Source of the DNA: a virus
Length of the DNA stretch: 27,368 nt
Virus record (IMG/VR): IMGVR_UViG_3300017991_000347
Coordinates: 1-27,368 of that record
Direction: 5' to 3' (one strand)
How positions within the stretch are numbered: position 1 is the first letter of the stretch; each line of letters opens with the position of its first letter. This document shows, one piece after another, positions 616 to 21,787 of the stretch. The notes beneath the pieces were generated by a model. The model did no database searches. It saw nothing but the letters and a program-made list of their open reading frames with translations, and had not been told where the DNA came from. A program made the translations under genes and the position numbers.

Positions 616-2367
616 TTAGCCTACGAGACCTCGGCAGACAACCAAGCCGTACATGTCTGGACGGACCATCTTCTTGGCGTAACGGGTCATGACACCCTTA
701 CGAGGTACGAAGTCCTCTACACCGAAGATTGTTGGTGTGGTCTGTAGTGGTACGTAAGGTGCGTACACATAACCGCTCTCAAGGAAGCTGGAGCCACGTC
801 GACCAACGAGGATCAACTGACGTGGGAAGTATGGGTCAACCATAACATCAAACTTCTTGGAGAGGGAACCAACGCGAACAGCACCGATATCACCACGGTC
901 AGCATCGGCTGTAACGTTTGCACGGAAGCCAGCTGTGAACTCAAGGATGTTGGCAACTTCTGGTCCGCAGACGACGAAGTTGGCAGCACCGCGAAGAGTC
1001 TTACGGTGGATCTGAGCGGAGACGTCGTTGATTGTCTCAACGAGTGTCTCGTACCACTCGGATACGTTACCAGTGAAGTCAGCTACACCAGAAGCCAAAA
1101 CAGCACCTGTCTCTCGGTTTAGGAACTCACCTGGGTTACGGGACCAGTAACGAACACCAGCTGTAGCACCACGTACAAGATCCTCAAGGATCTCGCGATC
1201 GATCTCAAGAGCAATCTGCTCAGAGAGGATCTGTGTAAGCTCAACCTCGGCGTCAAGGTTGTGGTAAGCGTTGAGGTCTTGACCCAACTCTGGTGTCCAC
1301 TTAGCCTTGAGCTTCTTGGTTACAGCTGTGACTGCTACGGAATCGACCTTGATGTCGATCTCTGGGATATCCTCAGAGCCCTCTAGACCCCAGTCAGCCT
1401 GACCAAGGACGGAACCGAGAGCACCACCGGGATCGAAGTTGTCTTCCATAGCGAATGTGATAGCAGTACCACCGCCAGAACCACTTGCGAGTGAAGCGGA
1501 AAGGGCGCCGGCTGATGCAGCTGCATCGTAAGAAACGAGTGTTAGCAAGATTGTATCACCATCATCAGCAACGATGTCATCAAAACGAGTTAGACGACGA
1601 ACCAAGTTTTCATTAGCAGAACCTGTGTAAGTAATAGTAATGAAGTTGTTAGGGTTCAATTCAGAACCAGCGGCTGTATCAACAGCAGCCTTGCTGATTG
1701 TACCAACAGCGAATGAAGAGCCAGATGGAAGATCTGGATCGAACTCCAGCAAACGGTCAACGTTGTAGCCAGCGGTTGGGAATGAACCGTTGCCAACAAC
1801 AGAACCTGTACCAACTATACCGAAAGCAACAATTGTAGGCTTTAGGCTTACGGAACCTGTTGGAGAGGAGTAGCCGTTGTTGAGTGCGTAAGGACCACGC
1901 TCGGCGTTGTCCTGCGCGAGGTCAACACCACCTGTGATCTCGGAACCAACTCGTCCACCACCGTAGAGTGATGTGTTTGTCTGGTAACCAAGACGTGGGT
2001 TATCAGCTGTCTGATCATCACCAATCTCCTGAGAGAAGGTGAAGTCAAGGAAGAAAATGAGACCTGATGGAAGGCTCATTGGCTGAACGCTTACGAGATC
2101 GTTAGCGATCAAGGAACCGAATACACGGCGTACAAGTGGGAATGCAACAGCGGCAAAGCCCTCTACGTCACCAGCAGCCATGCTGGAAGACTCACGGAGA
2201 AGCTCCTTTGCCTGATTCTCAAGCAAACGGGCCATACCGTTTCTCTGTGTATCATCAGAGATGCCCTCAAGAAGACCGGTCTGCTCCCACTTGTTGATAA
2301 GTGCGGCACCCTCGGCTGAGAGATCACGATTGACGATACCCTCTGTCAATCTTTGTACAATAGACAT
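616..2367 (-). CDS. 23: Major capsid protein, T4 gp23-like
   Basis: This 583-residue protein builds the icosahedral head. The block at about residues 69-108 (GFAAVAFPLVRRVFGSLIAN, then DLVSVQPMSLPSG) matches the conserved N-domain of T4-type gp23, where T4 reads VRRAIPSLIAFDVCGVQPM. It is a little longer than T4 gp23 (521 aa). In T4 the N-terminal ~65 residues are removed by gp21 after Glu; here LRE at residues 57-59 and DVE at 67-69 are candidate cleavage sites. The ATG at 2367 has a strong AGGAGGT site 8 nt upstream. It follows the scaffold gene by 27 nt and precedes a hairpin terminator, as expected for a highly expressed late gene. Confidence 0.96.
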   Translation of the reverse strand: MSIVQRLTEGIVNRDLSAEGAALINKWEQTGLLEGISDDTQRNGMARLLENQAKELLRESSSMAAGDVEGFAAVAFPLVRRVFGSLIANDLVSVQPMSLPSGLIFFLDFTFSQEIGDDQTADNPRLGYQTNTSLYGGGRVGSEITGGVDLAQDNAERGPYALNNGYSSPTGSVSLKPTIVAFGIVGTGSVVGNGSFPTAGYNVDRLLEFDPDLPSGSSFAVGTISKAAVDTAAGSELNPNNFITITYTGSANENLVRRLTRFDDIVADDGDTILLTLVSYDAAASAGALSASLASGSGGGTAITFAMEDNFDPGGALGSVLGQADWGLEGSEDIPEIDIKVDSVAVTAVTKKLKAKWTPELGQDLNAYHNLDAEVELTQILSEQIALEIDREILEDLVRGATAGVRYWSRNPGEFLNRETGAVLASGVADFTGNVSEWYETLVETINDVSAQIHRKTLRGAANFVVCGPEVANILEFTAGFRANVTADADRGDIGAVRVGSLSKKFDVMVDPYFPRQLILVGRRGSSFLESGYVYAPYVPLQTTPTIFGVEDFVPRKGVMTRYAKKMVRPDMYGLVVCRGLVG

Positions 2368-2394: not shown

Positions 2395-3444
2395 TTATTT
2401 ATTCAAACCTGCTAAACGCAGCATACGACCCATTGCTGGATCCTTAGTTGCCTCGTTGTTTCTCTTAGAATTGATCAAAAGCGACGTAGGTCTTTGAACC
2501 GCTTCACGTAGTGTTTGTGGACGTTTTCTCTGATCAGGAGTGTTCCCCACTGCGTTTTGAATTGTTTCAAAAATCATACTTGCTTCTTCAACAGAATTGG
2601 CAGATTGAACAGCTTCGACAATTTGTGCTTTTTGTCGCTCATTCAAGGAGGCGCTATTCAAAGCCTTGTTTTGATAAACAAGCTTGGCGTTATCAAGATT
2701 CAACTTTGTAAGTTGATCCTTGGCTTCAACAATGAGAGCACGAAGCTCTCTGTTAGATTCTGTAAGTTCGGAGATCTTTGCTTCATGAAGTTCTACTGGC
2801 ACAACATCTGGTGCGGTATCTTCTTCAATCTCCTCTTCCTCTTCTTCCTCAAGGTGTGCTTTCTTAGCAGCTGCAATAGCATCATTATTTGCTTGCATCA
2901 CGCTATTGTAAGCACCACCGAGTGAAGAGAAACCTGCTGGTGATGTATCCATATCAACAACAAGCTCTTCTACTAGTTCTTTAATAAAGTCTTCGGACAA
3001 GTTGAGATCATCGTCTTCTTCTGGGGGCTCGACTGGCTCTGCACCTAGTTCAGCAGTATCTTCCTCGGCAGAAGCTTCAAGCTCTGGGGCCATCTCGCCA
3101 CCAACCATATCGTCAGCCATCTTTAGAGCATCGTTAAGGTCTTCTTCCTCAACAACTTCATCTTCCTTTTCTAAACGAGCCTTGAGAGCATCAAAATCGA
3201 TCTCAACGATCTCATCATCTTCTGGAGCGTCTAACTCTTCGTTCTGAAATGCGTAAGGAACTTCGTTTGTAAACTCGGATAGTGTATCGTCTTCGGCTGC
3301 GGGCTCTTCTTGTTCTAGCAAAGTATCTAAGGCTTTCTTAACTTCACCAGAATACTTTTCCAATACAACGTTTTCAGCATTCTTCAATGCTGCTTCCTTA
3401 AGGGCTTTGGCGTCCACGATCGCCTCTTCTAATAGTGAAGACAT
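2395..3444 (-). CDS. 22: Prohead core scaffold protein, gp22-like
   Basis: A 349-residue, very acidic, Glu-rich and largely helical protein lying directly upstream of the capsid gene, which is where T4 carries the gp22 core scaffold. Acidic low-complexity tracts run through the middle (for example EEEEEEEIEEDTAPD), followed by a coiled coil (about residues 220-265). The start is the ATG at 3444 (MSSLLEEAIVDA) with GGAG 9 nt upstream; a TTG 15 nt further upstream in the same frame overlaps that ribosome site and is less likely. The C-terminus ends in RMLRLAGLNK, resembling RWQKIAGISKK at the end of the large protein at 8458-10527. The sequence is too low-complexity to prove homology, but position and composition agree with gp22. 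Confidence 0.8.
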   Translation of the reverse strand: MSSLLEEAIVDAKALKEAALKNAENVVLEKYSGEVKKALDTLLEQEEPAAEDDTLSEFTNEVPYAFQNEELDAPEDDEIVEIDFDALKARLEKEDEVVEEEDLNDALKMADDMVGGEMAPELEASAEEDTAELGAEPVEPPEEDDDLNLSEDFIKELVEELVVDMDTSPAGFSSLGGAYNSVMQANNDAIAAAKKAHLEEEEEEEIEEDTAPDVVPVELHEAKISELTESNRELRALIVEAKDQLTKLNLDNAKLVYQNKALNSASLNERQKAQIVEAVQSANSVEEASMIFETIQNAVGNTPDQRKRPQTLREAVQRPTSLLINSKRNNEATKDPAMGRMLRLAGLNK

Positions 3445-3478
3445 AAAAATTAACTCCAAACACGATAGCTCGTCAAAA

Positions 3479-3487
3479 ATAAATAGT
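3479..3487 (-). promoter_or_regulatory. ACTATTTAT motif upstream of scaffold gene
   Basis: Exact ACTATTTAT on the minus strand, 35 nt before the scaffold ATG. It also lies inside an A+T-only inverted repeat (AAAAATAAA and TTTATTTTT). Candidate late-promoter element by recurrence; the 127-nt gap around it contains no open reading frame. Confidence 0.35.
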
Positions 3488-3571
3488 GTTTTATTTTTCT
3501 AAATGACGAAAACTGTTTTATTTAAGAAGCGTAAAGTTAAGGTACTCGTTTGTACAGTATGAAAAGTTTAA

Positions 3572-4321
3572 TTATGGAGTAGCCGTGTACTCAAAGCCAT
3601 TGAGAATAACTTTATAAAGCCTGTGAGTCTCCTCAGTTGCGGAGCCAGCATAAAATGATATTGCGATTCGGACGGCACCGCCGGCGGCGTCCCAGAGCTC
3701 GTCGGTGTCGGTCCAACTTGGCGTTGCGGCTGTGCCGCCTTCACGGAACGAAACTGTCTGGCTCACACGCTTAATACCAATCCATCTTGCTGTGGTTCTG
3801 GCTAAATTTGAAGTTCCGTTGTGTATAAGTGCGCGGGAGGCGAAGGCGCCCATTCCATAGTATTTGGCGTTCGCCGTGGACCATCTTCCGTACCTATGAC
3901 CTAGCCAGTGCGCTTCATTAACCGCGTTGCCGCCGCCTGCCATTATAGCGATCTCTGTATATAAATTCGCAACACTTCCTGGGTTATCGGTGTATATGGC
4001 AAAATCAAAATCCCCCATAAGAAGATTGGGGTATTGAATTTTCCCATTAGTTAAAAATCCGTTCCCGTTGGTCGGCGCGAAGGTTCCACCGGTCCCCTGA
4101 TCAAATTTAATATTGCATGTGGAGCCATCATCTGTTATGGCGTTAAAAACCCCATTTGGATCTTTAACTTCCCACCCACTTAACATCCCAGCATCTAATG
4201 TAGCACCATCTGCAATGCTAGATGGAGTTCCAGCTGAGGGGGACAAGGTCTGTGCAACAGTTGTGACATTGCTCCCGCCTGCCTGTAACTTCCATACACC
4301 ATTTTCTAATACTAATGCCAT
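3572..4321 (-). CDS. Adhesin-like virion protein, shared N-terminal anchor (distal copy)
   Basis: A 249-residue, Gly/Thr/Ala-rich, probably all-beta protein. Its first residues (MALVLENGVWKLQAGG) are nearly identical to those of the next gene upstream, while the rest differs, which is the pattern of a conserved attachment tip carrying interchangeable distal domains. A WIGIKR segment near residue 180 and a hydrophobic strand-rich C-terminus (AVRIAISFYAG) could belong to a lectin/laminin-G-like sandwich; that fold is a guess. Parts of the C-terminal half (about 3660-3740 and 3830-3930) are richer in G+C than the N-terminal half, suggesting mosaic origin. It lies after the fibre and adhesin cassette and before the scaffold gene. 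Role inferred: surface decoration or receptor binding. Confidence 0.7.
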   Translation of the reverse strand: MALVLENGVWKLQAGGSNVTTVAQTLSPSAGTPSSIADGATLDAGMLSGWEVKDPNGVFNAITDDGSTCNIKFDQGTGGTFAPTNGNGFLTNGKIQYPNLLMGDFDFAIYTDNPGSVANLYTEIAIMAGGGNAVNEAHWLGHRYGRWSTANAKYYGMGAFASRALIHNGTSNLARTTARWIGIKRVSQTVSFREGGTAATPSWTDTDELWDAAGGAVRIAISFYAGSATEETHRLYKVILNGFEYTATP

Positions 4322-4363
4322 TTTATAATCTCTTATGTTGCCGAAACAATTGCCCAGCCGAGA
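4281..4363. repeat. Direct repeat, copy A, of the adhesin cassette
   Basis: An 83-nt segment about 90% identical by eye to 5145-5228 in the same orientation. Read on the minus strand it holds the end of a fibre C-terminus (GWAIVSAT and stop), a short spacer with ribosome site, and the start of an adhesin gene (M-LVLENGVW-LQ). The two copies bracket the G+C-rich gene. Confidence 0.9.
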
Positions 4364-4368
4364 TCATT
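4333..4368 (-). pseudogene. Orphan C-terminal remnant of a fibre gene
   Basis: Twelve codons on the minus strand read NDLGWAIVSAT and stop, matching the last residues of the fibre gene at 5198-6751 (NGLGWAIVSAT). There is no start, and upstream of the remnant is the end of the unrelated G+C-rich gene. It is best explained as the 3' tip of a fibre gene left or carried by recombination when the neighbouring gene was acquired. Confidence 0.8.
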
Positions 4369-4387
4369 TCTACGGGCCCCCGGCTGT

Positions 4388-5185
4388 CTAGGACGGATCG
4401 AGCGTGTAGAAGCGCAGTCGCTTCAGAATCGGCGCGGTCGACCACTTCCCCGCCACCGCGATGCACAACGTCCGCGAGCTGGCCGCGAACGCCTCCGGCG
4501 TGAACCAATCGGGGTCCTGTGCGCCCGTGGCGTTCAGCGACGGCGAAGGGCTGGCGTGAGTCGCGAGCGACGGCGCCGAGGGGGGGGTGCCGGTCCCGCC
4601 GAAAGCCTGCACGGCGACAGGCTCGATCAGCATGCCGATCCACGACGGCTGCATAAGCTCGGCGGCGGAGCCGAAATCGCCGGCGCTAGCCTGTGACCGA
4701 AAGCCGCGAACCCCCGCGCCGGACGCGGTCCCCACGAGCTGCGCGGAGCAGAACCGAGTCGCGGACGACCCCGAGCCGCCCGAGCCCGTACCCGTGTCGG
4801 CCGCGAGATCCAGTTGCCGTGTGATCGTAGTCCCGGGATCCAGCGCGGCGGCGAACTCAAGCGTGACCCACATGGGCTTGGTGAGGTACCACGCCCCGGC
4901 CGAGAACACCTCCGCGAGATCGACGTGAAGCCGACCCGTGTCGCGGTTGTCCGCCTCGTGCGTGGTACCGGTCTTGCTGTCCATCACCACGCCGGTCGTG
5001 CCGTTCGGCCCGATTGTGTCCATGCGCGCGGTGTTGATGACGGCGACGTCGATGCCGTCGACGGTCTGCTTCCCGTCAGACCACGATGCAGAGGCGAGCG
5101 CCGCAAAGTTGAGGTCTGCGAGGAGCAGCGAGCGTGCGGTGTCTGCCTGTAATTGCCATACACCATTTTCTAATACTAATCCCAT
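4388..5185 (-). CDS. G+C-rich adhesin-like virion protein (inserted cassette)
   Basis: A 265-residue protein starting MGLVLENGVWQLQAD, sharing its first ~14 residues with the next gene downstream; beyond that there is little resemblance. By eye the gene is roughly two-thirds G+C with G/C-ending codons, against the mid-40s for its neighbours, and the change of composition begins just after the shared N-terminal codons. The protein is Ala/Gly/Thr/Ser-rich and probably beta-structured, with a WIGMLIEP segment near residue 180 that may correspond to WIGIKR in the neighbour. It is flanked by direct repeats and followed by an orphan fibre C-terminus. An AAAAGGATT ribosome site precedes the ATG. Inferred to be a recently exchanged receptor-binding or decoration module; the specific ligand is unknown. 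Confidence 0.75.
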   Translation of the reverse strand: MGLVLENGVWQLQADTARSLLLADLNFAALASASWSDGKQTVDGIDVAVINTARMDTIGPNGTTGVVMDSKTGTTHEADNRDTGRLHVDLAEVFSAGAWYLTKPMWVTLEFAAALDPGTTITRQLDLAADTGTGSGGSGSSATRFCSAQLVGTASGAGVRGFRSQASAGDFGSAAELMQPSWIGMLIEPVAVQAFGGTGTPPSAPSLATHASPSPSLNATGAQDPDWFTPEAFAASSRTLCIAVAGKWSTAPILKRLRFYTLDPS

Positions 5186-5228
5186 TCTATAATCCTTTTA
5201 TGTTGCCGAAACAATTGCCCAGCCGAGA
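5145..5228. repeat. Direct repeat, copy B, of the adhesin cassette
   Basis: Partner of 4281-4363, same orientation, starts 864 nt apart. Differences are a handful of substitutions and one single-base indel in the intergenic spacer. Recombination between the copies would delete the G+C-rich gene exactly and leave an intact fibre gene followed by an intact adhesin gene. Confidence 0.9.
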
Positions 5229-6751
5229 CCGTTTGTTGAAGACGAAATAGCCACCACAGTCATAGCTCCATAGTTTGTCGCTATCTTAGCAGCGGTACCG
5301 CCATCAATATTTTGTGAGCCAGATGGCTCAATAACAATATCGTTTGTACCAGCGTTTCCTCCGGAGTCTTTAATAATAAATGTAATACCATAATCATCTG
5401 AAGAATTTACGCCAGGAAGTGTGCCGGTAACAACTGAACTGTTGGTGTCAACAAGAAAAACTTGTGCATCGCGAATATTAAAGTTGCTTGTCTGTTCTCC
5501 AGAGACACCTTGATAGAAATTGGTCTTGTTTATCCTAAATTCATTTTCAAATACATCAAGACGATTAACTCCATCAAATACATAGCTTATTCCTTCGCCA
5601 ATATTGATAGACCCATTGGTAGAAGATGTTACCATCACTCCAACAGATGCTGTAATTGTTGGAACTGCCAACACATCAGAAGTAAATGTGAATGGAGAGT
5701 AACTTGTGATTTGACCGTTAGTGGTTGATACCAATACTCTGTCTGCCGGCACACTAGACACAAAAGCGTCTTCTACGTACAAGCCTGATCCCGAGATGTT
5801 CCCTGAGCCCGAGATATCGCCCCCTACCGTAAGAGTATGGTCTGGGTTTGTGTTGTTGATACCAACTCTATTGGCCGAGGCTGAAACAAAGATTGTGCTG
5901 TCTTGGATTGCTTGGTCTGTTTCGTTCCCGACAAATATATATCCTTTATCCAAGTTTGGTGTTGCGTTTGTTCTGCCGGCGCCACCGACTTTGATTTGCG
6001 CATCGCCACCGCCGCCGTTGCGCATAACCTTACCCATGTTCTGTAGGAGATTACCCGAGCCAGTGGGGGCGACATTTGTTAGTTTACCCGCATTGCCGCC
6101 GGAACCGGTCTGAACATACAAAATATCACCAACCGCGAATGTTTGGTCATATAGGCTTGTTAAGTCCAGATTTTTGATAGACCCAAAAGTTACAATCTGA
6201 ATATCATTGTTGTTCGCGGCAGTTTCTCCTGCTAGACCAAAAGCAGGCATCTTGCTAGCATCGTCACAGGCAGCCAAACCAACTGTTGGGGTCTGACCCG
6301 AAATACCGTTAATGTAAACTACCTGACCTCTAGTGATGCCGCCAACTTCATCTACTTGTGCCGGGAATCGAATGGCGCCTTGGAGGTCGCCGTAGAACTC
6401 ATAATCTTCCTGAACGCGAACGTTACCAGTAACTAAAAGATCGTTCGAGCCCGTATTCCAAGTTAGATCAGCTGATCCACTTAGATCCCCAGATACAGGA
6501 GAGTCAAATCTAAACTGCAGAGAGAACTCTGGACCGTCAGCAACTTGAACTGCTGATGCTGTGACGCCAGTTAGGTTAGAGCCGTCGCCATAAAAGGCAG
6601 ATGCTGATATGTTTGCGGATGCTGATAAGTTTCCTGCACCGTCTGTAGTTAATAACGCAGATCCGCTAAAAGATCCGCTGCTGTTAAACTGTATATCTCC
6701 ATTTGCGCCTCCGGGGGTGCCACCGCTTCCCGGTCCAAATACCCATGACAT
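5198..6751 (-). CDS. Fibre-like virion protein
   Basis: A 517-residue Gly/Ser/Asn/Thr-rich protein with features of phage fibres: FYGDGSNLTGV near residue 58 (a common fibre motif), alternating short beta repeats (LLVTGNVRV, DISGSGNISGSGL), and an RVGINNTNPDHTLTVGG segment of the type found in fibre shafts. No S74 intramolecular chaperone domain is seen at the C-terminus, which instead ends NGLGWAIVSAT. The ATG at 6751 has GGAGA 9 nt upstream and an ACTATTTAT motif further up. It lies in the head module next to scaffold and capsid genes, so it could be a head fibre as well as a tail fibre; the sequence does not decide. Its 3' end forms part of the direct repeat that bounds the adhesin cassette. 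Confidence 0.75.
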   Translation of the reverse strand: MSWVFGPGSGGTPGGANGDIQFNSSGSFSGSALLTTDGAGNLSASANISASAFYGDGSNLTGVTASAVQVADGPEFSLQFRFDSPVSGDLSGSADLTWNTGSNDLLVTGNVRVQEDYEFYGDLQGAIRFPAQVDEVGGITRGQVVYINGISGQTPTVGLAACDDASKMPAFGLAGETAANNNDIQIVTFGSIKNLDLTSLYDQTFAVGDILYVQTGSGGNAGKLTNVAPTGSGNLLQNMGKVMRNGGGGDAQIKVGGAGRTNATPNLDKGYIFVGNETDQAIQDSTIFVSASANRVGINNTNPDHTLTVGGDISGSGNISGSGLYVEDAFVSSVPADRVLVSTTNGQITSYSPFTFTSDVLAVPTITASVGVMVTSSTNGSINIGEGISYVFDGVNRLDVFENEFRINKTNFYQGVSGEQTSNFNIRDAQVFLVDTNSSVVTGTLPGVNSSDDYGITFIIKDSGGNAGTNDIVIEPSGSQNIDGGTAAKIATNYGAMTVVAISSSTNGLGWAIVSAT

Positions 6752-6828: not shown

Positions 6829-7338
6829 TTATCTATCAACACTATCAATAACTCTAAAAGTTCCTTCTCGTGCTCTTACACATTCGGCGCTTATCTGAAA
6901 CTTGTGTTCTACTTGACCAAAGTAATATCTTGTGTCGTTATACGTTTTTACAATCTCGTAAAACAAATCACCATACTGAACAAAATCACCAGCACGAACA
7001 AAAAGATCTTGATCTTCTGTTAGGCGGCGGCGATGAAAATTAACTGTTAGTTTAGATTGGTATTCGTATCCATACTTTTGGTTTGTTTGCTCATTCTCTA
7101 CAACAACGTAAGCAAACACACGAACAGGCGGAAGCGTAACTTTGTCTATTGCTTCTCCATATGTTTCATTAAAATTAGAGTGCTCAATGCTTATAGGATA
7201 ATAAGCAACTGTTTGTCCAACAACTCTTTCAGCTAACTCATCATTAACTTGTTTTACAAGGTCACGCTCTTTTTGGCCAAAGAACATTGGCGGGGGTGGC
7301 GCATCAGGTTGCGTCCATTTGTTCTTTGGATCAGACAT
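6829..7338 (-). CDS. Neck protein, possibly gp14-like
   Basis: A 169-residue protein. Residues about 110-155 (RAGDFVQYGDLFYEIVKTYN, then DTRYYFGQVEHKFQIS) resemble the T4 gp14 neck protein segment around [20 protein letters not shown] and FYQLGQNAIRKI: a 'GD..-y..-lFeI' strand pair followed by '-yfGQ...k-qI'. T4 gp14 is longer (256 aa), so only the core would be shared. gp14 closes the filled head and joins the tail. The N-terminus is Pro-rich (DAPPPPMFF). It lies 6 nt after the preceding small structural gene. The gp14 call is from remembered family sequence and needs a profile search; a head-tail joining role is the main alternative. Confidence 0.5.
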   Translation of the reverse strand: MSDPKNKWTQPDAPPPPMFFGQKERDLVKQVNDELAERVVGQTVAYYPISIEHSNFNETYGEAIDKVTLPPVRVFAYVVVENEQTNQKYGYEYQSKLTVNFHRRRLTEDQDLFVRAGDFVQYGDLFYEIVKTYNDTRYYFGQVEHKFQISAECVRAREGTFRVIDSVDR

Positions 7339-7785: not shown

Positions 7786-8007
7786 TTACCTAAACAAATT
7801 ATCTTGTTCTTTTCGCATTTGTTTCTGCTGTTCGCGAATTGCTTTCTGTTTTTTCAATCTTTTTGTGATAGACGGCTTGATATAGTAATCAGTTTTTTCT
7901 CTATACTCTTGGACAATCTTTTGCTTTTTGCATTTGCGGTTAAAACGACGAATTAGTTTCTCATCTGACTCGCCGCGTCTCTTGACTACCTTAAGGTTAA
8001 CAGCCAT
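7786..8007 (-). CDS. rpsU: Ribosomal protein bS21 homologue
   Basis: A 73-residue, strongly basic protein matching bacterial bS21 along its length: N-terminal beta strand (VNLKVVKRRGES), helix with FNRKCKKQKIVQEYREK, then YYIKPSITKRLKKQKA, corresponding to the bS21 pattern 'RRFKRSCEKAGV...-R.-.YEKPT..RKRAKA'. In bacteria bS21 sits on the 30S platform near the anti-Shine-Dalgarno end of 16S rRNA and aids initiation. Length is normal for the family. Phage-encoded bS21 is documented in several marine phages and can enter host ribosomes. The gene lies within the head module, so it is probably expressed late. The inferred role is to bias host ribosomes towards phage mRNAs. Confidence 0.88.
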   Translation of the reverse strand: MAVNLKVVKRRGESDEKLIRRFNRKCKKQKIVQEYREKTDYYIKPSITKRLKKQKAIREQQKQMRKEQDNLFR

Positions 8008-18439: not shown

Positions 18440-18502
18440 TTATTTCTTCTTTTTCTTAAAAGCCAAGCCGCCTAAAAGCGCTTCCCAAAATGCTGCGTTC
18501 AT
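18440..18502 (-). CDS. 20-residue amphipathic, Lys-tailed microprotein
   Basis: The frame MNAAFWEALLGGLAFKKKKK starts at an ATG overlapping the stop of the nuclease-ATPase gene (ATGA) with GCGAGG about 8 nt upstream. The first 15 residues could form a short hydrophobic/amphipathic helix; five lysines end the chain, as in peptides that bind membranes or nucleic acid. It lies just upstream of the holin-like gene. No family recognised. Translation is supported by coupling geometry and ribosome site, not by homology. Confidence 0.55.
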   Translation of the reverse strand: MNAAFWEALLGGLAFKKKKK

Positions 18503-21500
18503 TGGTTAATCCTCGCGTATCCCTTGTCCTTCTCAATGGTTATCTCCATATCAACGATATCTTTTAGAGAATCCAAGTGAGAAATAAGAATGACTGTCTT
18601 GAAATACGTTTTGACTAGATCAAGCATCCGAATAAAGCCTTCCATATTCTCTGCGTCCAAAGCTGTTCCTGGCTCGTCTAGAATAAAGATGTTACCCTTC
18701 GGCAACGACGACACAGATAGAAGCGCCAAACGTATACCCATTGATGCTAGAGTCTTCTCTGCACCTGAGCCCATCTCAATAGGACGTGCTTCGTAGTTAG
18801 GATGCTTGATAAGCACGTCCAACTTGTTACCAGACTCTTGGAAGAAAACTTCAAAGTCAACAATGTTTGAGATTGTCTTTGCAATCTCTTCGTTAATAAC
18901 AGGCAGTCGTCTCTTAATAATATCGTAAGCAATACCGTTGGAATGCATGCAACGCATAAACAAATCATAAGCAGCGAATTCAGCACGAATATCAAGTAGC
19001 TCCTGCTTTTTATCTTTAAGTGTCTCTACCTTCTGCTCTAGTGAGCCGATTGTTCTGTTGTGAGTTGATAGACCTTCCTCAAAAGCTTCGATGTCTCTCT
19101 TATTAGCCTCAATCATCTCCGCAACCTCATTCCGCGAAGAAATAAGATTTTCGATATTCTGGATAGCTTCTTTGTTGTCCTCGTACAATGCAATCTTTTC
19201 ATTTGTCTCGGACAAATCAGAGGTCATCGTTTTAATCTTTGCGAACTGCTTCTCAATTGAAACCTTGTTGTCTCGCTTCTTAATCTCAATAGCATTCTTC
19301 GCAATGATTGTTTCATTGTATCTATCAATCAACTCAACCATCTCGGCAGAGTTAACTGACACTATCTTCTCTTTGTAGCCCTTAGCTTCCTCAATCTTCT
19401 TAACGATCTTCTTCTCAAGCAGAGGCAACTCCAATGAAGCGCTGTGAGCATCTGAAATAAACTTACAAGACGAAACATAAGCACTGCCGCAAGGAACCTC
19501 ATCAAGAAGTGTGAGTTTCTTAGACATAGTCTTATAATCGTTGTCCATAATGCGCGCACGGTTTACGGTGCTGTCGTAACGTTGCTTGAAGTCGTCGTAC
19601 TGCTTCTTCTCTTCTAGCAACTCCTCAATGTTGATCGTTGTTAGGAAATCATCATAAGTCTTAAGCTTGTCGTCAAACTCTGAGATCTCATTCTTAAGCT
19701 CGGAAATATTTTCCTTTGTGTCCTCGATATTGTTGGTTAGCTGCGTTCTTCTCTCAACCAGCTCCTTGATGTTTAGACGCTCAGTCGGGATTGAATCAAT
19801 CTGTTCAGTCAAATCTCTATATGTTTGTTCGTTTTGAGCCAACTGTAGACGTATTGCATCGCATCTTTCGGTGTCAGCTTGTAGTTCCTTCTGTGCCTCT
19901 TCGCAATGAACCTCTGCAATTGCTATGTCTTTATCATAGTCTACGTCACCAATACGTCGTAGGACAGCTTTTAAGTCAGAAGAGTCTTCTTTTGCCAGCT
20001 TAAACTTCTTCTCAAAGATCTCTAAATCCAAGAACTTAGCAAGGATCTCCTTTCGTTTTGTAGACCCTTCCTTGATAAAGCTTAAGGAATCAAGCTGGCT
20101 AGCCATTGACGTCAGCAAAAAGTCTTCAATCGTGCCAAACTGCTTGCGAATGTTGGCATCAGTTTCGTTACGGGTTGTGCCGTTAAGACTCAAATCACTG
20201 TCCTGTGTAAAGTCCAAGAATGTTCTGGCCTCATTAGTTTCCACACCCTTGAGGCGCTTTACATACTTCTCTGACTTCCTCTCAATGGTATAAGTCTTCT
20301 CGCCAATCTGAAGCTCTATCGTACCACTACAGTTCTTTTTGTTTTGATTGATGATGTTATAGTTCTTGCGCTCGTTCTTTGACGTTGTATTGAACATAGT
20401 GTAAAGCATTCCATCAATAACAGATGACTTGCCTGAATAGTTCTTTCCAAAGATCCCGACAATACCGTTGAGATTTGTAAAGTCAAGAGTGTTGTCTTCA
20501 CCGTAGTTGAACAGATTGTCCCACTCAAAGCGGTTGATATTCCAGTTTACGTTTCTCGCAATGTCTTCGTTCTCTTCAATATGAGAGTTATACTTGCGGT
20601 TTAGTTCGTAAACTTTCTGTAAGACAGCCTCAGAAGGCTCGTAATCTTGTAGATACTCACGAATATGCTCTTCCTGAACTGCTACATCTCGTAAGTTCTC
20701 AATCTTGAAGTTCTTTCCAAGACTAATATCACCTCTTTCGCCTGCTGCTCTGTTTAGGAACGAGATTGATTCCGGCTTGAAACGAGACTTTGCGACCTCA
20801 ACAGCCTTGCGCATTACGTCCAGAGGCAGATTGTTGTTACTTACAAGACGCAGACGCGCACCAGAAGGAATATTTGTGCCCTTCGGCATCCGACCCTTTG
20901 GTGTTAGTTCAATAGTAACGAAAGGCTTGGGGTTTAAAAGAACGTGATGTTTGACAGTAAAGTCATCTTTACTACGAATTTCCCAAGTTAAGAATCCTTT
21001 ATCATTAGTTTCGCCGTGGTTCTGCTGGACGGTTGAGCCTGGATAAATCGCGAGGCATTGTGCTTTTCTAATCTTGTTTTCTTCTACTATCTCCCAACCG
21101 TCTTCAAGGTATTTATCAAGATCTTTTTCATCAACGATTTCTTCTTTCCATTTTGACTGAACTACCTGATTTGTTTTGTGGATGTCTCCAAGCATCGCAT
21201 AATCGTGACCAGCAAACACCCCAATGTCGTGATCGCCGTGATCCATTACCCAGCCAACGTCAGTTGAGACACCACCAATAGCACCGTGATACAAAGCAAT
21301 ATTGATGCGTGTTGGATCGCTTGGAGCAACCCAGTTCTCCTCATCAAATACAGACAGCACATTGAGCGCGAGATCGGGCTCTAAGATCGTTTCACCAGCA
21401 TCTTTGAGTAGGTGAAGGTTAGGGAGGTTCAAAGCGCTTACAATGGGCGACAGAGCGTCCTGACGGCTGCTGTTCTTTAGGTTTCCGTCGTGGTTTCCAA

Positions 21501-21735
21501 GCAGAACATAAGTTGGTGCGATTGCTTCAAGATTTCTAAAAAAATCTGAGCACAACTCAACGAACTCCGGAGAGATTTGTGTTTTTGTGTGGGCAATATC
21601 ACCAGTATGAACAATGTAGTCCACATTTTCCTCACGAAGTTTTTGATAAAGTTGCTCAAAAACAACACGATATTCGTAGTGGTATTTTAGATTTTTGATG
21701 TGGGTATCACTAATATGTCCAAATTTGTATCCCAA
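18499..21735 (-). CDS. Fused Mre11-Rad50 (SbcD-SbcC; gp47-gp46-like) recombination nuclease
   Basis: A single 1078-residue chain. Residues about 1-390 are a calcineurin-type nuclease with all metal motifs: D10-T-H12, GD46, GNH82D, H150 (LYHGA), AGH177 and GDIH186. Residues about 400-1078 are a Rad50-type ATPase: Walker A GIFGKNYSGKSS (427-438), long coiled coils, a hook region with C749 and C757 (C-x7-C rather than CxxC), signature MGSGAEK (988-994), Walker B IFILDEPG (1016-1023) and H-loop His1053. The complex resects DNA ends for recombination-driven replication; in T4 it is two proteins, gp47 and gp46. The start is TTG at 21735 with GGGAG 7 nt upstream and no nearby ATG. A terminator lies just upstream. 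Confidence 0.93.
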   Translation of the reverse strand: MGYKFGHISDTHIKNLKYHYEYRVVFEQLYQKLREENVDYIVHTGDIAHTKTQISPEFVELCSDFFRNLEAIAPTYVLLGNHDGNLKNSSRQDALSPIVSALNLPNLHLLKDAGETILEPDLALNVLSVFDEENWVAPSDPTRINIALYHGAIGGVSTDVGWVMDHGDHDIGVFAGHDYAMLGDIHKTNQVVQSKWKEEIVDEKDLDKYLEDGWEIVEENKIRKAQCLAIYPGSTVQQNHGETNDKGFLTWEIRSKDDFTVKHHVLLNPKPFVTIELTPKGRMPKGTNIPSGARLRLVSNNNLPLDVMRKAVEVAKSRFKPESISFLNRAAGERGDISLGKNFKIENLRDVAVQEEHIREYLQDYEPSEAVLQKVYELNRKYNSHIEENEDIARNVNWNINRFEWDNLFNYGEDNTLDFTNLNGIVGIFGKNYSGKSSVIDGMLYTMFNTTSKNERKNYNIINQNKKNCSGTIELQIGEKTYTIERKSEKYVKRLKGVETNEARTFLDFTQDSDLSLNGTTRNETDANIRKQFGTIEDFLLTSMASQLDSLSFIKEGSTKRKEILAKFLDLEIFEKKFKLAKEDSSDLKAVLRRIGDVDYDKDIAIAEVHCEEAQKELQADTERCDAIRLQLAQNEQTYRDLTEQIDSIPTERLNIKELVERRTQLTNNIEDTKENISELKNEISEFDDKLKTYDDFLTTINIEELLEEKKQYDDFKQRYDSTVNRARIMDNDYKTMSKKLTLLDEVPCGSAYVSSCKFISDAHSASLELPLLEKKIVKKIEEAKGYKEKIVSVNSAEMVELIDRYNETIIAKNAIEIKKRDNKVSIEKQFAKIKTMTSDLSETNEKIALYEDNKEAIQNIENLISSRNEVAEMIEANKRDIEAFEEGLSTHNRTIGSLEQKVETLKDKKQELLDIRAEFAAYDLFMRCMHSNGIAYDIIKRRLPVINEEIAKTISNIVDFEVFFQESGNKLDVLIKHPNYEARPIEMGSGAEKTLASMGIRLALLSVSSLPKGNIFILDEPGTALDAENMEGFIRMLDLVKTYFKTVILISHLDSLKDIVDMEITIEKDKGYARINQ

Positions 21736-21753: not shown

Positions 21754-21787
21754 AACTCTACCGTCAGTATATACCAACGGTAGAGTT
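21754..21787 (-). terminator. Intrinsic terminator upstream of the nuclease-ATPase gene
   Basis: A perfect 11-bp stem (AACTCTACCGT with ACGGTAGAGTT), a 12-nt loop and, on the minus strand, a run of T residues directly after the stem. It lies 20 nt after the stop of the 118-residue protein gene and 19 nt before the TTG start, so most transcripts of the resolvase-primase group should end here. Confidence 0.85.

Follow-up and report, generated by a model that had tools for sequence, protein, structure and literature searches.

A probable slot for exchangeable receptor-binding modules behind the fibre gene of an uncultured T4-like phage lineage

Why would a phage carry, between its fibre gene and its capsid gene, two genes whose starts, together with the fibre ends before them, form a pair of direct repeats? 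The question is raised by the 27,368-base virus record IMGVR_UViG_3300017991_000347 (the window, i.e. the whole stretch of DNA analysed). It belongs to a T4-like phage of an uncultured lineage, and a gp17 terminase, a gp20 portal, a gp21-type protease and a gp23 capsid protein were recognised in it. On the minus strand the order is fibre gene, ADH1, orphan fibre tip, ADH2, scaffold-like gene and capsid gene, the name ADH (adhesin) being a putative label for both genes. We consider it likely that this region is a slot for receptor-binding modules, in which a 14-residue docking peptide and the fibre tip receive exchangeable, probably carbohydrate-binding domains that are replaced and stacked.

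The fibre gene (5198..6751, minus strand) is an open reading frame of 517 amino acids with the conserved C-terminal tip NGLGWAIVSAT. Behind it lie ADH1 (4388..5185, minus strand; open reading frame of 265 amino acids, beginning MGLVLENGVWQLQ) and ADH2 (3572..4321, minus strand; open reading frame of 249 amino acids, beginning MALVLENGVWKLQ), each composed of a 14-codon leader and a body. The ADH1 leader MGLVLENGVWQLQA (5144..5185, minus strand) has a GC content of 0.38, and the body behind it is GC-rich (body 0.69, whole gene 0.67, third codon positions (GC3) 0.87), compared with 0.434 for the whole window; the ADH2 leader is MALVLENGVWKLQA. A first-pass annotation of the sequence had described this G+C-rich gene as bracketed by repeats, each made up of a fibre tip with its stop codon, a ribosome site and the opening codons of the gene behind it. 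This was confirmed on the minus strand, as was the orphan fibre C-terminus NDLGWAIVSAT between the two genes (4333..4369, minus strand), which has no fibre gene attached and starts 18 nt after the ADH1 stop codon. The repeats exist as well, but with other figures than the 84 bp and about 90% identity given there: self-BLAST aligned 5143-5228 with 4279-4363 over 86 columns at 93.0% identity (5 mismatches, 1 gap, expect value E = 2e-29), and a repeat search returned 52 nt at 92% plus 40 nt at 93% with a spacing of 864/865. At E ≤ 1e-3 this pair is the sole direct self-match of the window, the other self-match being a 34-nt inverted one. Copy B (5143..5228, minus strand) comprises the fibre tip, the stop codon, a spacer with a ribosome site and the ADH1 leader; copy A (4279..4363, minus strand) comprises the orphan tip, stop codon, spacer and the ADH2 leader. 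Both read LGWAIVSAT and stop, 11-12 nt of spacer and M[GA]LVLENGVW[QK]LQA. As to a tail-fibre switch driven by a diversity-generating retroelement or an invertase, no inverted copy of the repeat arms was found in the window, a 27-kb record compared with up to 88 kb for related contigs; this result covers the arms, no search for reverse transcriptase or invertase genes having been made.

To see what relatives carry at this spot, a capsid search was used, which returned 583 relatives, the best 80 of which served as capsid loci; a fibre search gave 7 loci, with only contig 3300029258_000823 (L085) new compared with the capsid list. In 40 of the 80 capsid loci the scaffold start is present and preceded by 900 nt or more. 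Among these 40, the strict leader was present in 14, a variant in two (MALVNQNGVWRL in L041, MALVKENGVWRL in L045) and a loose second motif, M[AS][NR]IK, upstream in six; the 18 loci with none of these include L018, whose contig starts inside the leader. Across viral contigs, two leader patterns, which miss variants such as that of L041, agreed on 16 stretches; the 15 contigs that contain them all belong to this lineage. Contigs at least 97.5% identical were merged (L002, L003 and L004 with the window; L005/L008, 99.96%; L024/L026, 99.8%; L029/L030, 100%; L018/L020, 99.85%; L041/L045, 97.5%), which left 11 genotypes with a leader. L085 and L025 were taken as one genome, an assumption based on 144 identical overlapping end bases and on names that both begin with 3300029258. 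L041 and L045 were found by eye and are absent from the segment-identity and pairwise tables, and L045 is also outside the BLASTP comparison.

Two genes are present in four of the 11 genotypes (window type, L085, L013 and L064) and one gene in the other seven (L026, L032, L030, L005, L020, L015 and L041). As the first-pass annotation had anticipated for a swappable cassette, relatives therefore differ both in the genes and in the number of genes behind the same fibre-tip/leader junction, and an arrangement of both genes in the same order in all relatives was not found. By BLASTP the bodies fall into three families that are weakly linked to one another: ADH1-like (window ADH1, L085, L020), ADH2-like (window ADH2, L026, L032, L030, L005 and the second gene of L064) and a third family (L013 twice, L015, the first gene of L064, L041). 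The two tandem adhesins of L013 are 58-60% identical. Judged from these alignments, the fixed spot behind the fibre gene is a real exchange slot with differing content in relatives. The spacer before the scaffold gene (3445..3571, minus strand) is the rejoining site of several replacement alleles; it is identical at 125 of 127 positions in L026 and 94% identical over 71% of its length in L020. A separate leader class (MANIK.../MSRIK...), corresponding to the loose motif, starts genes in the slot before the scaffold gene in L034 (242-1111), L056 (2663-3532), L067 (7894-8676; L068 is 99.95% identical to L067) and L069 (410-1198), and the bodies of L067 and L069 are remotely related to ADH1 (E 7e-8 and 6e-5). 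The sixth match to the loose motif is in L010.

For one allele the kind of phage from which the body came could be recognised. An alignment scan with the ADH1 body found contig L120, which has a GC content of 0.65-0.70 over 12.7 kb of its 21.3 kb. Positions 3126-4164 of L020 match positions 5985-7023 of L120 without gaps at 94.9% identity over 1039 bp. In L020 the left joint falls at codon 14/15, directly after the leader, and in L120 it falls between two donor domains of a 509-aa gene, an ADH2-like part followed by an ADH1-like part. The captured piece takes in the following 88-aa frame, and on the right the allele returns to the recipient sequence in the spacer that precedes the scaffold gene. 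L018, a contig from another metagenome record that is 99.85% identical to L020 over 4664 bp (7 mismatches), has the left joint too, preceded by about 23 nt of leader. The ADH1 body itself shares 27-33% of amino acids with the L020 and L120 genes. An ADH2-like gene (50% amino acid identity) is also present in another high-GC contig, L130, and seven pairs of reading frames are collinear between L130 and L120. Neither contig matched the fibre, scaffold, capsid or three small neighbour genes of the window (L120 over the 12.7 kb), and a tape-measure protein is recognisable in L120. On this comparison L120 comes from an unrelated phage of high GC content and is not the donor itself but related to it at 95%, and at least one domain in the slot is, by its DNA, derived from an unrelated phage type. 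Since the sequence to the left of the joint, recipient leader versus L120, has no obvious similarity, homology arms seem not to have been used in this capture. About 250 bp of GC-rich DNA unmatched in L120, with a short lipoprotein-like frame, lie between the captured piece and the scaffold spacer (L020:4165-4410).

Searches for other sources gave little. In 50,697 annotated phage records, tblastn returned no match at E ≤ 0.01 for ADH1, ADH2, the L020 adhesin, the L020 88-aa gene or the L120 509-aa gene, and three proteins (one of L130, two of L120) had no relative there. Neither Pfam nor PHROG families were hit by ADH1 or ADH2 at E ≤ 0.1. Scans of bacterial genome contigs with the ADH1-body and ADH2-body alignments gave 89 and 178 pattern matches and no confirmed relative; such scans need exact peptide patterns, so a bacterial source is possible. 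The ratio of nonsynonymous to synonymous substitution rates (dN/dS) was 0.14 for the L020 body against its L120 copy, and 0.12-0.27 in six of seven gene comparisons, the seventh (the L013 pair) being saturated and the value for window ADH1 being based on 4 differences.

How, then, did the window come to hold two such genes? Segment identities along the region form a patchwork. Window and L005 share 95% in the capsid protein and 36% in the adhesin, and L025 and L026 have a capsid identity of 93%, with two genes in one and a single gene in the other. Between the window and L085 the capsid identity is 78%, a value that was read on L025 and depends on the assumption that both contigs are one genome, and the gene pair is 99.6-100% identical in DNA overall: the ADH2 body at 708 of 708 bases, the ADH1 body at 744 of 747 aligned bases plus a 9-base deletion that leaves the frame intact. 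Copy A is identical in both phages across tip and leader; in copy B the tip is identical and 2 of 48 bases differ on the leader side. Because copy A and copy B are not the same, although each of them is identical or nearly so between window and L085, an origin of the repeats as two joined parental arms would fit better than duplication in place. Over 8.0-12.4 kb spanning the repeats, contigs L002, L003 and L004 are 99.96-99.98% identical to the window, and L085 has the same pair amid otherwise more divergent surroundings; an assembly accident is therefore unlikely to have produced the two-gene structure.

Leaders and bodies also seem to have been exchanged. When leader type (residues 2/11 being G/Q or A/K) was crossed with body family (ADH1- or ADH2-like), all four combinations were present, as seen in window ADH1, L026 and L032, window ADH2, and L020; barring convergence at both sites, leader-body exchange is therefore needed. 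The left arm of L026 agrees with copy B at 63 of 65 positions and with copy A at 48 of 64, and its body agrees with ADH2 at 630 of 708 bases, compared with chance level (56%) for ADH1. At sites where the copies differ, L026 is B-type in the tip (10/10) and in leader bases 1-44 (5/5) and then ADH2-type (3/4); the corresponding counts in L032 are 8/10, 4/5 and 3/4. The bodies of L026 and L032 are ADH2 at 89% and 84% DNA identity. Such a merger of copy B and copy A had been predicted in the first-pass annotation, and in these two relatives it is found. Their junction would be the product expected of repeat recombination in the window allele, but L026 and L032 are diverged in other respects, and an older single-gene state would explain it equally well. 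In these segment alignments shuffled DNA averages 54-58% identity, with maxima of 72% at a length of 65 nt and 76% at 42 nt. Body values of about 56-61% and several arm values of L064, L013 and L015 are for this reason no evidence of homology.

Are the conserved gene ends kept as DNA, as arms for recombination, or as protein? Among 12 aligned leaders, M1, L3, V4, G8, W10 and L12 are invariant and L5, E6 and Q13 have one exception each; the six invariant residues are also kept in the L041 and L045 variants. In the best-matching gene pair of each of 45 genome pairs, leader identity is 8-14 of 14 residues; body identity in the same pairs varies between 21% and 100%. Where the residue is the same, the codon is identical in 304 of 504 leader codons (60%), compared with 78/105 (74%) at the fibre start, 201/263 (76%) at the scaffold start, 353/434 (81%) at the capsid start, 10,726/15,583 (69%) for the whole capsid gene and 44/97 (45%) at the start of the small gene G73. 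The leader is thus below four of the comparison sets and above one, the G73 start, in a rough control whose sets differ in size (53 gene pairs for the leader, 10 for G73). By this measure leader DNA is not specially conserved, and what is kept at the conserved ends therefore seems to be a protein module and not a DNA arm, with the DNA homology as a by-product. The first-pass view of the gene ends as homology arms accordingly stood in part. Exchange does occur at the fibre-tip/leader junction; on the other side are the unremarkable leader DNA, the shared left DNA of L026 and L020, which extends hundreds of bases into the fibre gene, and the missing left homology at the L020 joint. The same view also included a possible host-range switch that could draw on the phage's own resection and resolvase proteins.

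The fold of the bodies was approached by structure prediction. ADH2, modelled from 8 sequences, gave a mean predicted local distance difference test score (pLDDT) of 72 and a predicted template modelling score of 0.76. Residues 2-17, essentially the leader, have a pLDDT below 50, and body residues ~18-245 were modelled as a concanavalin-A-like beta-sandwich. In VIA-align, the 50 matches shown have Z 13.8-14.9 with 173-202 residues aligned and are mostly glucanases, GH43 enzymes and alginate lyases (6t2p: Z 14.9, root-mean-square deviation 3.5, 193 aligned); a carbohydrate-binding module of the Lactobacillus phage J-1 Dit is also among them. Foldseek returned many legume-type lectins, and against viral models many matches of low template modelling (TM) score, a few of them named concanavalin-A-like. 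Used as a sequence profile against the PDB, the ADH2 alignment gave no match at E ≤ 1. A shared concanavalin-A-like fold, itself predicted, is no proof of sugar binding. The ADH1 and ADH2 bodies are hardly comparable in sequence (best BLAST E 0.36; hhalign probability 11%, E 0.003), and the L005 body bridges weakly to ADH1 (E 2e-5); these values would agree with a common ancestor of the two bodies as well as with separate origins.

In the mechanism that we propose, a fibre gene ending in the conserved tip would be followed directly by a gene that keeps its first 14 codons (MGLVLENGVWQLQA, MALVLENGVWKLQA) and varies beyond them. Most likely the 14 residues would be a docking peptide through which the second protein is attached to the fibre. 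Docking and receptor binding are suggested because the leader is kept over three body families and was modelled with low confidence, and because of the gene order, published attachment peptides and the gp37-gp38 system discussed below. The remaining ~225-265 residues would be an interchangeable, probably carbohydrate-binding domain, with a fold predicted for ADH2 only and a presumed function. Such domains are replaced between relatives, at least once from an unrelated phage type, and can be stacked, the window carrying two, each with a leader of its own. For capture, illegitimate joining followed by selection would suffice; spread by homologous exchange through the fibre end and the scaffold spacer could follow. 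The window would be explained most economically if a fibre-ADH1 parent and a fibre-ADH2 parent had been joined unequally, at a point 37 nt short of the fibre end in the second parent; the copy-A tip sequence extends over 37 nt, its stop codon included. To judge from the joints, such an event would have produced the orphan tip as well as the pair of repeats. If one repeat then recombined with the other, ADH1 would be taken out and the reading frames left intact; relatives do carry single-gene alleles with a junction of this kind, which may be older or younger than the two-gene state.

Several points weigh against this reading. Docking and receptor binding are predictions. The low pLDDT of the leader would fit a free docking peptide but also a plain lack of signal, the Foldseek TM scores of ADH2 by query are only 0.41-0.56 among the matches shown, and the ADH1 model is unusable (pLDDT 34). 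In the contig scans no near donor of the window ADH1 body was found. The predicted deletion allele is missing from the four contigs of the window's own species, since the window, L002, L003 and L004 all carry both genes, and in L032 the single-gene state was read from just 83 nt upstream of the leader. L013 and L015 carry further genes between slot and scaffold gene, and the spacer 3445..3571 has no match in either; because of this unmatched boundary the right end of the slot is, in the alleles compared, not universal. Finally, the cluster sits among head genes, so that capsid decoration is possible.

That alternative, in which the fibre and a lectin-like partner would sit on the head and stick to surfaces or polymers, so that exchange would be about habitat and not receptor choice, is the strongest competitor, and we regard it as rather unlikely. 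It would account for the location of the genes between the S21/prohead-protease cluster and the scaffold-capsid pair, and for L120 and L130, in which the homologue follows genes that belong to no recognised family, within a structural block that precedes the L120 tape-measure gene. However, over 17-27% of its length the fibre matches 13 phage records at 33.6-40.2% identity, mostly annotated tail fibre-like or fibritin. Position alone is a weak argument: Flavobacterium phage immuto and Microcystis phage Mel-JY01 have no gene annotated as a fibre between protease and capsid, though in immuto a short 'tail fiber protein' lies directly behind the capsid gene. Alternatively, the 14 codons could be a translation-start or expression element, or be inherited with the fibre end, without any docking role. 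The AT-rich leader codons and the conservation of other gene starts would agree with this, but six residues invariant and three with one exception in 12 leaders, while synonymous codons vary, as well as the retention of the six in L041 and L045 and the other conserved leader class heading remotely ADH1-related bodies in L067 and L069, make it the less probable of these two.

The two remaining explanations concern the origin of the pair and fare worse. If the fibre-tip/leader segment had been duplicated in tandem and in place, the intervening gene would be a diverged copy, as the flanking of one gene by a direct repeat and the similar tandem adhesins of L013 might suggest. In the window, the lack of a direct BLAST relationship between the ADH1 and ADH2 bodies, weakly bridged as they are by L005, their hhalign probability of 11%, the GC3 of 0.87 in ADH1 versus 0.46, and arms that differ mutually while each is conserved between window and L085 speak against it. 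Tandem duplication is thus improbable and disfavoured for the window, and it stays plausible for L013. An assembly chimera as the source of the GC-rich gene, to which the abrupt GC change might point, is scarcely credible: the same structure is present in the window, L002, L003, L004 and L085, and the L085 frame is kept despite the 9-base deletion. The receptor-binding-module slot remains the reading that we prefer.

How does this slot compare with known systems? Second receptor-binding proteins of Klebsiella phages of the KP34 type carry a short conserved N-terminal heptapeptide, MALxxLV, and short conserved peptides of this kind are also known from K1E, K1-5 and SP6 (Latka et al. 2019, PMC6872550). 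As there, a very short conserved N-terminus proposed for attachment is followed here by an exchangeable, variable domain; heavy horizontal transfer and the reuse of the same kind of element by several receptor-binding proteins are likewise shared, the peptide and the window leader having been compared by the letters MAL alone. Unlike that system, with an anchor receptor-binding protein as partner and depolymerases, the proposed partner here is the C-terminus of the neighbouring fibre, and the domain is lectin-like. A Pfam scan of the fibre at E ≤ 0.1 listed no T4gp10-like docking domain, for which no dedicated search was made. The ltfA-ltfB locus of phages DT57C and DT571/2, called a potential mutation hot spot by its authors (Golomidova et al. 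2016, PMC4728585), is also a double-gene receptor-binding locus with long direct repeats, where recombination leads to single-gene alleles. There, however, the repeats lie inside both fibre genes and deletion fuses them, whereas here the repeat is the gene junction and whole genes are left; gene loss was seen in the laboratory for ltfA-ltfB, and here it is only suggested by the alleles.

A separate distal-tip adhesin with a variable receptor part is known from T2-type gp37-gp38 (PP01, S16; PMC12892980), and the slot shares with it a gene directly behind the fibre with conserved N-terminus and variable rest. In that system the adhesin contacts the fibre through its N-terminus, and exchanging this part restores the match between the two. 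The swapped part there has 113 aa versus the 14-aa leader here, and the receptor domain is a polyglycine sandwich, unlike the concanavalin-A-like fold predicted here (ADH2 model). No gp38 match in Pfam or PHROG was found for ADH1 and ADH2 (E ≤ 0.1) or for nine proteins from other loci (E ≤ 1). Movement of receptor-binding modules between morphologically distinct phages was described for host recognition modules of Alteromonas phages (PMC10579305); that module comprises fibre and chaperone, unlike the single domain with short following donor DNA behind a recipient leader found here. A literature search of titles and abstract openings, which is not proof of absence, returned no description of this locus. 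Modular receptor-binding proteins with a short attachment peptide are thus known, and new are the lineage, a cross-phage donor type in view and a stacked arrangement with its repeats at the gene junction.

Around the slot, the gp23 major capsid gene (616..2367, minus strand; Pfam Gp23, 6e-72) and the prohead scaffold-like gene (2395..3459, minus strand; 354 aa by the first start, function by position only) served as syntenic anchors. Homology of relatives to the scaffold-like gene begins at the internal MSSLLEEA; of the 80 capsid loci, 77 have it beside the capsid gene, and the other three loci begin at most 64 nt from the capsid gene. Megablast of window positions 1-25000 against the 50,697 phage records gave no match, and for terminase and capsid all best places are below 60% identity, with Flavobacterium immuto phages and Mel-JY01 among the top matches. 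A homologue of ribosomal protein S21 lies inside the head-gene cluster (7786-8007; Pfam 6e-11), and Mel-JY01 likewise has one between protease and capsid. A 169-aa gene adjoining the fibre gene (MSDPKNKW..; 6829-7338 in the window) is a tandem double in several relatives, and its second copy continues into a fibre-like body in L005 (2461-4536), L013 (723-2981), L030 (1666-4170) and L010 (2550-5009); this could be another graft site within the cluster. Further away, a long frame (18499-21735) joins a calcineurin-like phosphoesterase to an SMC/RecN-like ATPase, which resembles a fused gp47-gp46 resection pair, and the 34-nt inverted repeat (88%; 21754-21787), a candidate hairpin, lies in a gap between two genes.

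What may the slot mean for these phages? Tentatively, and with considerable doubt, tip and leader could be a general plug-and-socket, by which any lectin-like domain joined in frame, also one from an unrelated high-GC phage, would be displayed at once and the repeats would make the repertoire reversible without a dedicated recombinase. If this is true, a single virus with stacked genes would have several tips at its disposal and could lose one of them cleanly through the repeats on either side. In the L020 capture the recipient leader, the joint and a close donor relative are all visible, the foreign domain being 95% identical in DNA exactly behind the 14-residue leader. The capture thereby offers a minimal tag for attachment to phage fibres that can be put to the test, and the one- and two-module alleles form a natural series for asking how phages gain a second binding specificity.

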